Source of the DNA: Campylobacterota bacterium
GTDB taxonomy: Bacteria > Campylobacterota > Campylobacteria > Campylobacterales > Sulfurimonadaceae
Direction: 5' to 3'
DNA length: 64,000 nucleotides
Assembly (NCBI GenBank): GCA_040752835.1
Contig: JBFMGG010000005.1
Span: forward strand, 124,001-188,000
The translations under genes were made by a program, and so were the position numbers. Positions 20,706 to 25,303 of the stretch are shown in pieces. A model generated the notes under the pieces. The model worked only from the letters and a program-made list of their open reading frames with translations, had not been told where the DNA came from and made no database searches. Position 1 is the first letter of the stretch. The number at the start of each line of letters is the position of its first letter.

Positions 20706-20909
20706 ATGTATCGAATGACTTACAACCACAAAGGCGTTACCGGCTGTTCAGCACGTGGAATCGCCAAACGCAACACCAAAGAAGAGCTGCTCAAACTGGC
20801 CGAAGAGCTCAAAGATTCCATCTGCAACATCGACATCCGTCCGATCGAAAACTACAGCGAAAAGAGACTTCCGCTGGAAGTGTTCGCCAACACCAAAGAG
20901 TTGCGATGA
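20706..20909 (+). CDS. Small unknown protein coupled to lsrK
   Basis: The 67-residue product is not recognised. It is basic at the start (YNHKGVTGCSARGIAKRN) with one amphipathic helix (KEELLKLAEELKDSI), no signal peptide and no membrane helix. GGAAAG lies seven bases before the ATG. Its stop overlaps the lsrK start (ATGA), so it is likely translated and coupled to it. A role in AI-2 kinase control or stability is only a guess. No clear promoter is visible in 20656-20705. Confidence 0.55.
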   Translation: MYRMTYNHKGVTGCSARGIAKRNTKEELLKLAEELKDSICNIDIRPIENYSEKRLPLEVFANTKELR

Positions 20910-22438
20910 AAGGCTACTTTCTGGTCCTCGATGCGGGAACGGGGAGTATCCGCTCGGTCATATTCGATACCCTGGGCAATCAGGTCGCCATCGCGCAGTA
21001 TGAATGGGAACACGTAGCCGAGGAGGGGGTCGCGGGGTCGATGGGATTCGATTATGTCCGGGGCTGGGAACTCGCCAAGCGCTGTATCGGCGAGTCGATC
21101 GCGTCCGCTAAAATCGACGCTTCCGCGATTATGGCGGTTTCGGCTTCGAGCATGCGCGAGGGGATCGTCGTTTACGATGCGCAGATGCGTGAGATATGGG
21201 GGGTCGCGAACGTCGACAGCCGTGCGGGATCGGAAGTGGCGTATCTCAAAAGCCGCGATCCGTTTTTGGAAAAGGAGTGTTACCGCAGCAGCGGGCAGAC
21301 GTTTGCCCTCTCGGCGGCTCCTCGACTGTTGTGGCTCAAAAACAACCGGCCCGCACTGTATGAACGTGCCCGATATTTTACGATGATCAGCGACTGGATC
21401 CTCTTCAAACTCAGCGGGGAACTCGCCTCGGAACCCTCCAATGCGGGGACCGCCGGAGCGTTTAGCCTGACGCGGCGCGACTGGAACAAACGCGAATTCG
21501 AACAATGCGGTCTCAAGGATATGTTCGTACCGATCCGGGAGAGCGGGGAAGTTTTGGGGAAGGTGAGCGTACAGGCTGCCCGGGAAAGTGGATTGAGCCC
21601 CTCGACACTGGTGGTGATGGGTGGCGGCGACGTACAGATCGGAACCGCGGGCCTGGGAGCTTCAAAGCTCGGCGACGCCGTCGTGCTGGGCGGAAGTTTC
21701 TGGCAGCAGGTCGTCAATATCCCCTCCGGGGCGACTCTTTCGGATGCGATGTTGCTGAGGGTCAATCCGCATGTGGTGGCGGGAATGTCCCAGGCGGAGG
21801 GGATCACCTTTTTTACGGGGCTGGTGATGCGCTGGTTTCGCAATGCGTTCGGATGCGGTAAAAGCTATGCGGAACTCGAACGGATGGCCCAGAACGTTCC
21901 GCCGGGTTCGCACGGGATCATCCCGATCTTCAGCGACCGGATGAATTACGGGGAATGGATACACGCCTCGCCGTCGTTTCTGGGACTCGGGCTCGACGAG
22001 AGCAAGTACAACGTCGCCTCGATGTTTCGGGCCCTCGAAGAGAACGCGTGCATCGTAAGCGCGATCAATCTCGATAACATCAAAGCGTTCAGCGGCGTTT
22101 CGCCCACCTCGCTGACCTTTGCCAGCGGTGCCTCCAACGGGACACTATGGTCGCAGATCCTCGCCGACGTGAGCGCTCTGGAGGTGCGCGTTCCGGTGGT
22201 GAAAGAGGCGACGGCGCTGGGGGTAGCGATGGCTGCGGGGATCGGTGCGGGCATTTACGAAAGCTTTGAAGAGGCGGGGAGCCGCATCGTCACAATCGAG
22301 CGGGTGTATGAGCCGAACATGGCAAACCACGCACGCTACGCCGAAGTCAAAGAGCGGTGGCTCAACGCCTACGCCAAACAGATGGAACTGGTCCGCGAGG
22401 GGACGCTGGAGCCGATGTGGAAGGCTCCGGGGATTTAA
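20906..22438 (+). CDS. lsrK: Autoinducer-2 kinase (FGGY family)
   Basis: LsrK phosphorylates AI-2 (DPD) at C5 with ATP, trapping it in the cell. The 510-residue product follows enterobacterial LsrK closely as I recall it: LDAGTGSIRSVIFD at 8-21, VSASSMREGIVVYD near 75-88, NVDSRAGSEV, FSDRMNYGEWIHASPSF near 345 and LWSQILADVSALEV near 410. It ends in LEPMWKAPGI, like LsrK's WKAPGL. Other FGGY kinases (fuculo-, rhamnulokinase) lack the SMREGIV stretch, so the call is strong. No lsrACDB or lsrR is nearby. Its stop overlaps the convergent lsrG-like gene by four bases. Confidence 0.9.
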   Translation: MKGYFLVLDAGTGSIRSVIFDTLGNQVAIAQYEWEHVAEEGVAGSMGFDYVRGWELAKRCIGESIASAKIDASAIMAVSASSMREGIVVYDAQMREIWGVANVDSRAGSEVAYLKSRDPFLEKECYRSSGQTFALSAAPRLLWLKNNRPALYERARYFTMISDWILFKLSGELASEPSNAGTAGAFSLTRRDWNKREFEQCGLKDMFVPIRESGEVLGKVSVQAARESGLSPSTLVVMGGGDVQIGTAGLGASKLGDAVVLGGSFWQQVVNIPSGATLSDAMLLRVNPHVVAGMSQAEGITFFTGLVMRWFRNAFGCGKSYAELERMAQNVPPGSHGIIPIFSDRMNYGEWIHASPSFLGLGLDESKYNVASMFRALEENACIVSAINLDNIKAFSGVSPTSLTFASGASNGTLWSQILADVSALEVRVPVVKEATALGVAMAAGIGAGIYESFEEAGSRIVTIERVYEPNMANHARYAEVKERWLNAYAKQMELVREGTLEPMWKAPGI

Positions 22439-22740
22439 AATCCGTACGCCTTTTCATCCAGAAGATCCAGCTCTTCGGTGTATTTGTCGTCGACGAACGG
22501 CTCGTAATGCGATTTGTAGTAGGCATAATGTTCCGTATGCTTGTGCCCTTCGAGCGCTTCTTCGTTTTCCCACGATTCGACGGCGAAAAATTTTCTCGGA
22601 TTGACCTGCGACTGAAAGATGTAGTAAAAGAGGCATCCGGGCTCTTTGAGCGAAGGCGCAACCATGTCCTCAAGCAGTTTTTTGACCGTTTGGATGTGTT
22701 CTTCTTTGGCGATAAAGGTCACTTTTTTCGTAATTTTCAT
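22435..22740 (-). CDS. lsrG: LsrG-like protein (antibiotic-biosynthesis-monooxygenase fold)
   Basis: LsrG isomerises phospho-AI-2 to 3-hydroxy-2,4-pentanedione 5-phosphate. The 101-residue product has the dimeric ferredoxin-like ABM fold. Its core SLKEPGCLFYYIFQ...RKFFAVESW...HKHTEHYAYY matches LsrG in spacing (SIKEPGNLRF, RFFIYEAY, HKTTPHYK, from memory). The C-terminus is longer and acidic. The family also includes quinol monooxygenases, so the function rests on the match plus the adjacent lsrK and luxS. It lies 10 bases after the aldolase gene, in the same operon. Confidence 0.72.
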   Translation of the reverse strand: MKITKKVTFIAKEEHIQTVKKLLEDMVAPSLKEPGCLFYYIFQSQVNPRKFFAVESWENEEALEGHKHTEHYAYYKSHYEPFVDDKYTEELDLLDEKAYGF

Positions 22741-22750
22741 AGATTGATCC

Positions 22751-23923
22751 TTATTTTTTGAGTTTTGCCTGTTCCAGCTCCCAATATTCCATCTGAAACA
22801 TTTGCGGGAGGCTAAGCGACGTCCATCCCCCCAGCTGTTCGGCTGAGAGGATTGCGGTGAGAGTGTGTTTGACGATGTCGCCGATGATCAGCGACTCTTT
22901 GTCGTCTTTACCCAGTACGACGATTCCCACCCCTTTAATCACAGCGTAGCGGGGGGCGAGATCAAGGCAGATGTGCTCGCTCAAGGCGTTGGCGTGGAAA
23001 TAGGCTTTGTATTCCTGGGCAAATTGCACGATACCCTGGGCGATGTCCCCGTCGATGATGGCGGGGAAGGGTTTGATCCGGATAACGTGTTCGGGAGTCA
23101 GTCCCCCCTTTTTGACCAGGGATGCAAGATTGGGAAGGATGCTGAACAGCTGTGCGCGGGGTGAATCGATCAACATCGGGGAGAGATCGCATCCGCGCAG
23201 TTTCGACGCTTCCGCGGCTACGGCCGCAGCCACAGCGGGATCGCCTTTGCCTTCGCAATCGCCGCAGGCAAGGGTGACACGCTCGGCCAGATACGTTTCG
23301 GCTGCGGTGACGATTTCGATCATTTTTTCATAGGCCCGTTTGGCGTCATTGTCAAACGTAAAGACGCCGTGGTGCATCAGAATGATCCCGGACAAGGTAC
23401 TCCAGTCGACGCTCCGGGTGAGTTCATGGATATGCTTGGCCAGTTCGAACCCCGGCATCACGTAATCGACGATGAGCATATTTTTTCCGTACAGCTCCTG
23501 CACCAGCGTTTTGCCGCCCGGGGTGTTGGTGAGGGTTACGACCGCGTCGGCATGGGTGTGGTCGACGTAATCAAAGGGGATGATGGCGTGGAGAATCGCT
23601 TCGATCGAGGGGTTGGGGGCGCTTTGGTCCGACATCGCTTCGCGCTGTTCTTTGACCATTTGGGTGTCCGAGAGGCTTTCGCGCTCGGCCATCGCACACA
23701 GCGCCCCCAGATTGACCGGGGAAAACCCCGGTTTTTCGATCGTATCGAGATTCCATCCGCTCCCTTTGACGTAGAGGGTATCGCCGATTTTGACGGAGGT
23801 GTTGCCTCCTCCGTGCAGGACCAGGCTTTTTTCGGCTCCCAGCAGTCGGGAGGTATACACCCGCATGGCGAGAGGATCGTTCCCGAAGCGGGCGGCAGTG
23901 GCGTCGTCGAAAAGGCTTTTCAT
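22751..23923 (-). CDS. Class II aldolase/adducin-family protein, RhaD/FucA type
   Basis: Zinc-dependent class II aldolases split ketose 1-phosphates into dihydroxyacetone phosphate and an aldehyde. The 390-residue product has GGGNTSVKIG (phosphate site, ~38-47), NPSIEAILHAIIPF with a candidate catalytic Glu (~104), DHTHADAV (two zinc His, ~121-126) and MHHGVFTF with a third. The first part resembles the aldolase half of long RhaD-type bifunctional enzymes, but the usual C-terminal dehydrogenase is missing. Context (LsrG-like gene downstream, luxS divergent, lsrK convergent) suggests a role in phospho-AI-2 breakdown; the substrate is not proven. Confidence 0.75.
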   Translation of the reverse strand: MKSLFDDATAARFGNDPLAMRVYTSRLLGAEKSLVLHGGGNTSVKIGDTLYVKGSGWNLDTIEKPGFSPVNLGALCAMAERESLSDTQMVKEQREAMSDQSAPNPSIEAILHAIIPFDYVDHTHADAVVTLTNTPGGKTLVQELYGKNMLIVDYVMPGFELAKHIHELTRSVDWSTLSGIILMHHGVFTFDNDAKRAYEKMIEIVTAAETYLAERVTLACGDCEGKGDPAVAAAVAAEASKLRGCDLSPMLIDSPRAQLFSILPNLASLVKKGGLTPEHVIRIKPFPAIIDGDIAQGIVQFAQEYKAYFHANALSEHICLDLAPRYAVIKGVGIVVLGKDDKESLIIGDIVKHTLTAILSAEQLGGWTSLSLPQMFQMEYWELEQAKLKK

Positions 23924-23951
23924 AGGGTTACACCTTTGGTTTAATCCACGA

Positions 23952-23957
23952 ATTATA
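23952..23957 (-). promoter_or_regulatory. -10 element for the aldolase-lsrG operon
   Basis: TATAAT reads on the minus strand 28 bases before the aldolase start codon, within the 95-base divergent gap shared with luxS. Confidence 0.5.
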
Positions 23958-23979
23958 GCGATGCAATAGTGAAATATGC

Positions 23980-23985
23980 TACTAT
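23980..23985 (+). promoter_or_regulatory. -10 element for luxS
   Basis: TACTAT lies 33 bases before the luxS ATG. The two divergent -10 elements are only 22 bases apart, so the promoters overlap and could share control. Confidence 0.45.
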
Positions 23986-24018
23986 TACCCCCAATAAAGA
24001 CCGAATTTAAGGATATAC

Positions 24019-24525
24019 ATGCCGCTACTTGACAGTTTTTGCGTCGATCACACCATTATGCCCGCTCCCGCCGTCCGCCGTGCCAAAGGGATGAAAACGC
24101 CCAAAGGGGACGACATCACCGTTTTCGATCTGCGTTTTTGCCGCCCGAACGAAAAGACCCTCTCTCCCGAGGGGATCCACACCCTCGAACACCTTTTCGC
24201 GGGATTCATGCGGGATCATCTCAACTCGGATAAAACCGAGATCATCGACATCTCGCCGATGGGATGCCGCACCGGATTTTACATGAGCGTCATCGGAACC
24301 CCCAGCGAGGAAGAGGTAGCCGACGCATGGGAAGCGTCGATGAAAGATATCCTCGATGTCAAATCCCAAAACGATATCCCCGAACTGAACATCTACCAGT
24401 GCGGTACCTACAAAATGCATTCGCTCGAAGACGCCAAGGCGATCGCAACCGAAGTGCTGCGCAAAGATATCGATATCATGGACAACGAAGCACTCAAACT
24501 CGACCTATCGAAGGTAGAAAAATAA
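24019..24525 (+). CDS. luxS: S-ribosylhomocysteine lyase (AI-2 synthase)
   Basis: LuxS splits S-ribosylhomocysteine into homocysteine and DPD, the AI-2 precursor, as part of the activated methyl cycle. The 168-residue product has the metal site H54-T-L-E-H58 and Cys 128 (YQCGTYKM), catalytic Cys 83 in MGCRTGFY, and the N-terminal SFCVDHT. Length is typical. AAGGATATAC precedes the ATG. Its stop codon overlaps the next start, beginning a run of four genes joined by 1-4-base overlaps. Confidence 0.98.
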
Positions 24526-24827
24526 TGGTCCTTTTGTTGCCGATGAACGGTGACGATACCCAGGAATCGGAGCTCAGCGGTATTTTGAGCGCCGAATTCT
24601 GGGCGACGGTCGAGGTCGAAGAGGGGCGCGTCGTGGAGATCAACTTTTACCGGGACCGCTCCGCGATCGAGACCCCCTGCGATGCCGTCATCGTTATCAA
24701 CAATTACGAACCCGTGATGGAATTTCTCGATCAACAGATGATGGTTCTCGTCGCCCACGCGCAACGCACCGTCGACGATATCGTCGAGGCTTATCTTTTC
24801 CGTGAGTTGCACGATCTGGCACTATGA
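24525..24827 (+). CDS. Small protein resembling the NifX/NifB cofactor-binding fold
   Basis: The 100-residue soluble protein is not firmly recognised. The middle and end (PCDAVIVINNYEPVMEFL, then VLVAHAQRTVDDIVEAY) resemble the pattern of the dinitrogenase iron-molybdenum cofactor-binding family, which also occurs in non-fixers with unknown roles. It has no Cys or His cluster for metal binding. The ATG uses the last A of the luxS stop codon, and its own stop overlaps the next gene by four bases. Confidence 0.6.
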   Translation: MVLLLPMNGDDTQESELSGILSAEFWATVEVEEGRVVEINFYRDRSAIETPCDAVIVINNYEPVMEFLDQQMMVLVAHAQRTVDDIVEAYLFRELHDLAL

Positions 24828-25303
24828 TCACCTCGCTGCTCCATCCTACGCCCCATACGAAAATCATGGTGGTGACCAGTCATCTGGACTCGATGGCGGA
24901 GGAACTGGGGCGTTTTCTCTCCCCCTATGAGGGGCTTATCGATCTTTCGCTCTTCCCCGGGGAACATCGGGACCTCGTCCACGGCACATTTCACAAAACA
25001 TTCCCGATCAAAGACTACCGATCCCCCGCCGCAGGCGTTCCCCGCGATTACGCCGCCGTGATCGTTCAGGATGTGCTGCACCGTCATGAGAATCCGCACA
25101 AATTTTTGCAGATGGCTTACCGGACGCTCCTCAACGCTTCGGAGATCATCATCGTCCAGCAAAACGGCTCGATGCCGCCGGCCGAGGTCGAATCGCTGCT
25201 CGATCAGGCTGAATTTCGGGCAATTAATGCGATCATGGATTTGATCGAAGGGTACGATGTGATCGTCGGAAAAAAAATGCACATGTGGGGTAAAGGGCTA
25301 TGA
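24824..25303 (+). CDS. Unknown protein, possibly a partial methyltransferase-like fold
   Basis: This is a 159-residue soluble protein. Its middle (YAAVIVQDVLHRHENPHKFL, then YRTLLNASEIIIVQQ) resembles the region after the SAM-binding loop of class I methyltransferases, where an Asp/His-rich turn is followed by a helix and strand. The glycine-rich SAM loop itself is missing, so it may be inactive or bind something else. It overlaps the genes on both sides by four bases (ATGA), putting it in the luxS operon. Confidence 0.55.
   Translation: MITSLLHPTPHTKIMVVTSHLDSMAEELGRFLSPYEGLIDLSLFPGEHRDLVHGTFHKTFPIKDYRSPAAGVPRDYAAVIVQDVLHRHENPHKFLQMAYRTLLNASEIIIVQQNGSMPPAEVESLLDQAEFRAINAIMDLIEGYDVIVGKKMHMWGKGL

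Follow-up and report, generated by a model that had tools for sequence, protein, structure and literature searches.

A stand-alone class II aldolase as a predicted replacement for LsrF in phospho-AI-2 breakdown

In E. coli, phospho-DPD is isomerised by LsrG; LsrF then transfers the acetyl group of this isomer to CoA, leaving DHAP (PMC8016206). Which enzyme takes this last step in a bacterium that encodes an AI-2 (DPD) kinase and an LsrG-like protein, and in whose genome no member of the LsrF superfamily was found? The question is raised by a locus in a 64,000-nucleotide stretch of Campylobacterota DNA (the window: contig JBFMGG010000005.1, positions 124,001 to 188,000). A preliminary description of this DNA had reported a two-gene operon of a class II aldolase and an LsrG-like protein, and had suggested that the aldolase replaces LsrF. 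The operon is borne out by the domain profiles and by the open reading frame coordinates, which leave a gap of 10 bases between the two genes. A profile search of the window's open reading frames added lsrK and luxS on the two flanks, which were absent from that description.

The AI-2 locus and its proteins

The locus comprises the following features:

20906..22438, plus strand: lsrK, AI-2 (DPD) kinase, identified by NCBIfam and by a match to a solved structure
22435..22740, minus strand: lsrG-like gene, ABM-family protein of 101 aa with ATG start, presumed phospho-DPD isomerase
22751..23923, minus strand: stand-alone class II aldolase, metal-dependent, 390 aa with ATG start, proposed LsrF replacement
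23924..24018, no strand: intergenic region of 95 bases (from the open reading frame coordinates) that separates the divergent aldolase-lsrG operon from luxS
24019..24525, plus strand: luxS, S-ribosylhomocysteine lyase, the DPD source, identified by NCBIfam and Pfam

All four genes are packed into 3.6 kb, with lsrK convergent to the lsrG-like gene (4-base overlap) and luxS divergent from the operon. Chance is excluded as an explanation of this grouping, because these genes are found side by side again in other genomes, of Campylobacterota as well as of Alphaproteobacteria. Further downstream, 24824-25303 (plus strand) codes for a 159-aa protein with no Pfam or NCBIfam match. The two further genomes of this genus conserve it in the vicinity of luxS.

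The identities of LsrK and LuxS are well supported. LsrK scores 735.8 bits against the NCBIfam model for autoinducer-2 kinase (NF008187, cut-off 528) and aligns over its full length with the solved LsrK 5ya0 (E 8e-170); LuxS scores 307 bits against NF002602 (cut-off 197) and 194.6 bits against the Pfam LuxS family. The third protein belongs to the Pfam ABM family (59.6 bits) and reaches 33.6 bits with the NCBIfam LsrG model NF007791 (cut-off 135), which counts against our preferred explanation. LsrG proteins of Alphaproteobacteria likewise stay under this cut-off (99-121 bits). Although the protein from the window is nearer in sequence to PA3566 than to the solved LsrG, a profile comparison with LsrG (hhalign) gives a probability of 97.2% (E 4e-11), and this similarity together with the association with LsrK described below (33 of 34 genomes) places it with LsrG. 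Hence "LsrG-like", as it had been named, is the right label and plain "LsrG" would be too strong; we predict that this ABM protein has LsrG activity.

The aldolase matches Pfam Aldolase_II (78.4 bits, cut-off 22.2) and does not belong to the DeoC/LsrF superfamily (PF01791). Thus, it is not itself an LsrF, and yet it may work in LsrF's place. Its full length corresponds to the N-terminal ~400 residues of the NCBIfam "bifunctional aldolase/short-chain dehydrogenase" models: with NF006196 it reaches 420.9 bits (cut-off 831) over positions 1-400 of 657, and there is no C-terminal short-chain dehydrogenase (SDR) domain. This agrees with the earlier statement that the dehydrogenase domain of the long RhaD-type proteins is missing here. 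With the bifunctional rhamnulose-1-phosphate aldolase/dehydrogenase (TIGR02632), the protein shares the N-terminal long class II aldolase domain; its score is 183 bits (cut-off 567.75), it lacks the SDR, and no rhamnose isomerase was found in the genome.

The protein contains the zinc motif DHTHADAV noted earlier and conserves the residues with which FucA and RhaD bind metal and perform catalysis. In an alignment with FucA, E108 falls on the catalytic position (FucA E73) and H122, H124 and H185 on those of the metal ligands (H92, H94 and H155); these four residues are invariant in all groups, and the residues of the DHAP site are also kept. We compared an AlphaFold2 model (pLDDT 91.2) over residues 1-220 with class II aldolases and obtained Z scores of 31.0 for 3m4r, 17.8 for FucA (1fua) and 18.2 for DrdA (6btg). 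On residues and fold, the protein is therefore a class II aldolase of the FucA/RhaD type. Dehydratases, an epimerase and oxygenases share this fold, so that the fold does not fix the reaction, and this too counts against the preferred explanation. Position 109, beside the catalytic Glu, was considered as a specificity residue and rejected: Ala occupies it in 50 of 51 lsr-associated proteins, but likewise in 12 of the 73 other fusions, and hence it is not diagnostic. A second Aldolase_II protein of the same genome, outside the window (G000:C7:216183-216710), was rejected as a candidate because its translation contains no HxH metal motif; it is perhaps no metal aldolase at all, and an aminotransferase gene lies next to it.

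Occurrence with LsrK and the place of LsrF

Within a phylum sample of 298 genomes, LsrK was found in 34 and the aldolase in exactly those 34. Six genera each mix genomes that contain both proteins with genomes that contain neither. The profile of the LsrG-like protein, searched in the 34 LsrK-bearing and in 26 LsrK-negative genomes, matched in 33 of the former and gave one weak match (1.3e-11) among the latter. The genes lsrG, aldolase and lsrK are contiguous and co-directional in 14 genomes, and 10 further loci carry the lsrG-aldolase pair. LuxS is present in all 34 LsrK genomes, compared with 254 of the 298 overall. Probabilities calculated for such patterns treat the genomes as unrelated and are given no weight by themselves.

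The LsrF superfamily (PF01791) was not found in 28 of the 34 LsrK genomes, including that of the window, and the PF01791 proteins of the remaining six are FbaB-like, being closer to FbaB than to LsrF. On these grounds we rejected an LsrF encoded elsewhere in the window's genome. With the Lsr pathway of E. coli and Salmonella, these bacteria have in common LsrK, a protein of the ABM family (LsrG or LsrG-like), an enzyme that takes the position of LsrF, and the expected product DHAP. In contrast, LsrF is a class I enzyme of the DeoC/FbaB superfamily that acts as a CoA thiolase, whereas the enzyme here is a class II metal aldolase; furthermore, the Campylobacterota were found without LsrB or LsrR, and in the window luxS lies next door. 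In the 34 LsrK genomes, the E. coli LsrB query gave no match at E<=1e-5 in a search without a positive control, and the LsrR family PF04198 was not found with a positive E. coli control. The receptor and the regulator that define the Lsr signalling system are thus both missing from what these searches returned (for LsrB, from the search without a positive control).

Among plasmids, the aldolase of the window finds its best matches in lsr loci of Sinorhizobium (41% over 389 residues). The order lsrA-C-D-B-aldolase, divergent from lsrR-lsrK-ABM, is found in Sinorhizobium, Ensifer, Rhizobium, Alloyangia, Paracoccus, Thalassospira and Roseateles sp. XES5. Klebsiella carries lsrF-lsrG where these loci have the aldolase, and a plasmid-borne lsr locus of Lacticaseibacillus carries lsrF; in Sinorhizobium and its relatives the aldolase occupies the operon position of lsrF. 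The Lacticaseibacillus locus (L. paracasei, NZ_CP064315.1, 5249-14339) codes for LsrF and LsrK, with no LsrG annotated or found; the cupin and RbsD (ribose pyranase) genes that follow lsrK might replace LsrG. PF01791 proteins in nine alphaproteobacterial genomes were rejected as LsrF: for most of the LsrF sequence, their identity to it is at most about 30%. That Alphaproteobacteria lacking LuxS can have lsr operons was already known (PMC2561040). Those of Sinorhizobium, Paracoccus, Alloyangia and Thalassospira share with the window an SDR-less class II aldolase, LsrK, LsrG and the lack of LsrF in the locus, but they differ in having their own LsrACDB and LsrR and in being known from bacteria without LuxS (PMC2561040). 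Their aldolases are about 40% identical to that of the window and have a different best NCBIfam model.

The two enzymes exclude each other in the order of Rhizobium cauense. In a Rhizobiales sample of 397 genomes, LsrK was found in 32, and their lsr loci contain LsrF only (22) or the aldolase only (10), never both and never neither, with LsrG in 32/32. In a tree of LsrK, the 20 LsrF-type rows form one clade, and a minimum of three switches between LsrF and aldolase is required. The 32 loci therefore represent few independent events.

Taken together, the adjacent LsrK and LuxS, the identical sets of 34 genomes, the lack of the LsrF superfamily in the genome, the mutual exclusion in the 32 Rhizobiales loci and the position in the alphaproteobacterial operons support the proposal that a class II aldolase replaces LsrF. 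That the aldolase is functionally linked to LsrK and LsrG, in LsrF's stead, is well supported, and from these sequence patterns we consider it highly probable that the stand-alone aldolase is a functional replacement of LsrF in phospho-AI-2 breakdown. It appears that the enzyme at the end of this breakdown was swapped, in two phyla of bacteria, for an unrelated metal-dependent sugar-phosphate aldolase.

Relation to aldolase-SDR fusions

From named genomes we kept 80 close homologues of the aldolase, namely 70 aldolase-SDR fusions and 10 stand-alone proteins. None of the 70 fusions lies beside LsrK, and 43 lie beside mtnA or mtnK. By comparison, eight of the ten stand-alone homologues lie beside LsrK; for the ninth the locus stops at the end of its contig, and the tenth lies beside an LsrK-like kinase. 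This last locus (Celeribacter ethanolicus, NZ_LRUC01000047.1, 2731-12238) codes for a stand-alone aldolase, the LsrK-like FGGY kinase, a 2-hydroxyacid dehydrogenase-like protein and a sugar ABC transporter, together a putative sugar pathway.

In the Campylobacterota, seven LsrK genomes encode the aldolase with a whole or degraded SDR and contain no stand-alone form. The fused aldolase adjoins mtnA in G286, G186, G126, G163 and G200, and mtnK too in the first four; in G210, MtnA is encoded on another contig. The mtnK-mtnA-aldolase/SDR clusters of G286, G163, G186 and G126 constitute a long-form DHAP shunt, and LsrK and LsrG are also encoded in these genomes. Since the only aldolase there is a fusion beside mtnA or mtnK, this enzyme would have to serve two pathways, which counts against the preferred explanation. 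In G253, which has no MtnA, the SDR is truncated while the aldolase domain, LsrK and LsrG are retained. G200 (G200:C104, 487-4727) has lost the SDR motifs and keeps an intact aldolase domain, with no MtnK found nearby, but it is a weaker case than G253 because LsrG was not found in this genome either. Its MtnA carries THSSVG in place of the motif THCNAG, a degraded active-site region in which the altered Cys is presumably catalytic. The G200 locus has the appearance of a decaying DHAP shunt.

In an aldolase tree (quick method, SH-aLRT support only), the Campylobacterota aldolases group in one clade, and a second comprises the alphaproteobacterial lsr aldolases and the Celeribacter protein, both with support 100. 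Forcing every stand-alone form into a single clade is rejected (p 1e-85), and therefore, if the fusion is the older state, the SDR was lost more than once. A joint clade of the Campylobacterota aldolases and the alphaproteobacterial lsr aldolases is not rejected (p 0.69), so that either one or two recruitments to AI-2 breakdown are possible. The best NCBIfam models differ (NF006196 for the Campylobacterota group, NF006192 for the alphaproteobacterial group), which leans towards two.

Reaction, alternatives and biological role

How might a class II aldolase act on the product of LsrG? In ketose 1-phosphate numbering, the bond cut by LsrF is C3-C4, the same bond that class II aldolases cut; with a ketone at C4, this cleavage requires an acyl acceptor. 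In the explanation that we prefer, LuxS would make DPD inside the cell, LsrK would phosphorylate it, and the LsrG-like protein would convert phospho-DPD to 3-hydroxy-2,4-pentanedione 5-phosphate, from which the aldolase, in LsrF's stead, would free DHAP. The metal-bound DHAP enediolate would depart with water as the acyl acceptor (a retro-aldol reaction of the C4 ketone in hydrated form), so that acetate would result where LsrF yields acetyl-CoA. Because water as acceptor would yield acetate and no aldehyde, an SDR domain like that of the sister enzymes would have no task here and would stand idle, which fits its absence. We regard this direct cleavage to DHAP and acetate as about as likely as not.

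The preliminary description had offered two routes, direct cleavage and cleavage after reduction of C4. The former is favoured and the latter disfavoured, because the SDR is absent from the lsr-linked forms and truncated in G253; the chemistry itself is a prediction. If a dehydrogenase encoded elsewhere did reduce the C4 ketone, the aldolase would split a 5-deoxypentulose 1-phosphate to DHAP and acetaldehyde. We consider this unlikely: the SDR is neither fused to nor recurrently found beside the lsr-linked aldolases and was apparently lost more than once, even though the sister enzymes carry it and adjoin mtnA or mtnK, the fusion is the sole form in some LsrK genomes, and DrdA, of the same fold, performs exactly this cleavage on 5-deoxyribulose 1-phosphate (PMC6079011). 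The salvage of 5-deoxyribose and methylthioribose by the DHAP shunt (MtnK or DrdK, MtnA or DrdI, and a DrdA-type aldolase) shares with the present case the fold, the catalytic residues and the carbon skeleton of the substrate, but there C4 is an alcohol, acetaldehyde is released, and the long-form relatives are SDR-fused and lie beside mtnA or mtnK.

It is less probable still that the aldolase uses CoA as acyl acceptor and releases acetyl-CoA and DHAP, as LsrF does with a different fold (PMC8016206). The aldolase takes LsrF's place in the operon, which would suit such a reaction. However, CoA binding is not known for class II aldolases, and we consider a thiolytic enzyme improbable.

A role in other sugar or nucleoside salvage, with the position beside lsrG and lsrK due to other reasons, is very improbable: the nearest relatives are RhaD-type proteins and mtnK/mtnA-linked fusions, but the aldolase co-occurs with LsrK in 34/34 genomes and excludes LsrF, a rhamnose role was rejected because RhaA was not found in the window's genome (for rhamnose, the refuting condition set by the preliminary description thus did not apply), and a methylthioribose or 5-deoxyribose role for the stand-alone form was rejected because MtnA is absent from 24 of the 34 LsrK genomes, including the window's.

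The most far-reaching reading is a metal-dependent retro-Claisen reaction that would convert the 1,3-diketone phosphate to DHAP and acetate with neither CoA nor NAD(P)H. The enzyme would derive from the aldolase-SDR fusions that serve 5-deoxypentose salvage and would have been recruited to LsrF's step, perhaps on separate occasions in the two phyla; in luxS bacteria without the Lsr receptor, the pathway would recycle the cell's own DPD. As a whole, this proposal is tentative and stands slightly short of an even chance. For the window, disposal of self-made DPD with recovery of its carbon is the most likely role, rather than signalling, since LsrB and LsrR were not found and LuxS is encoded in 34/34 genomes and adjacent here; DPD import by another transporter is possible.

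In the open literature we found no paper that ties LsrK or LsrG to a class II aldolase, and an earlier remark in Pereira 2008 (on S. meliloti) or Marques 2011/2014 (on LsrG and LsrF) is possible. The aldolase is a candidate for the final step of AI-2 degradation, which is missing in LsrK bacteria without LsrF in the locus, including Sinorhizobium meliloti, a known AI-2 responder. The predicted reaction would be new for class II aldolases, as an acyl cleavage to acetate and not an aldol cleavage to an aldehyde. Finally, these observations suggest that some luxS bacteria may treat DPD as a by-product that is salvaged internally. This bears on the long-standing question of the purpose of luxS, signalling or metabolism, which becomes testable with three purified enzymes.
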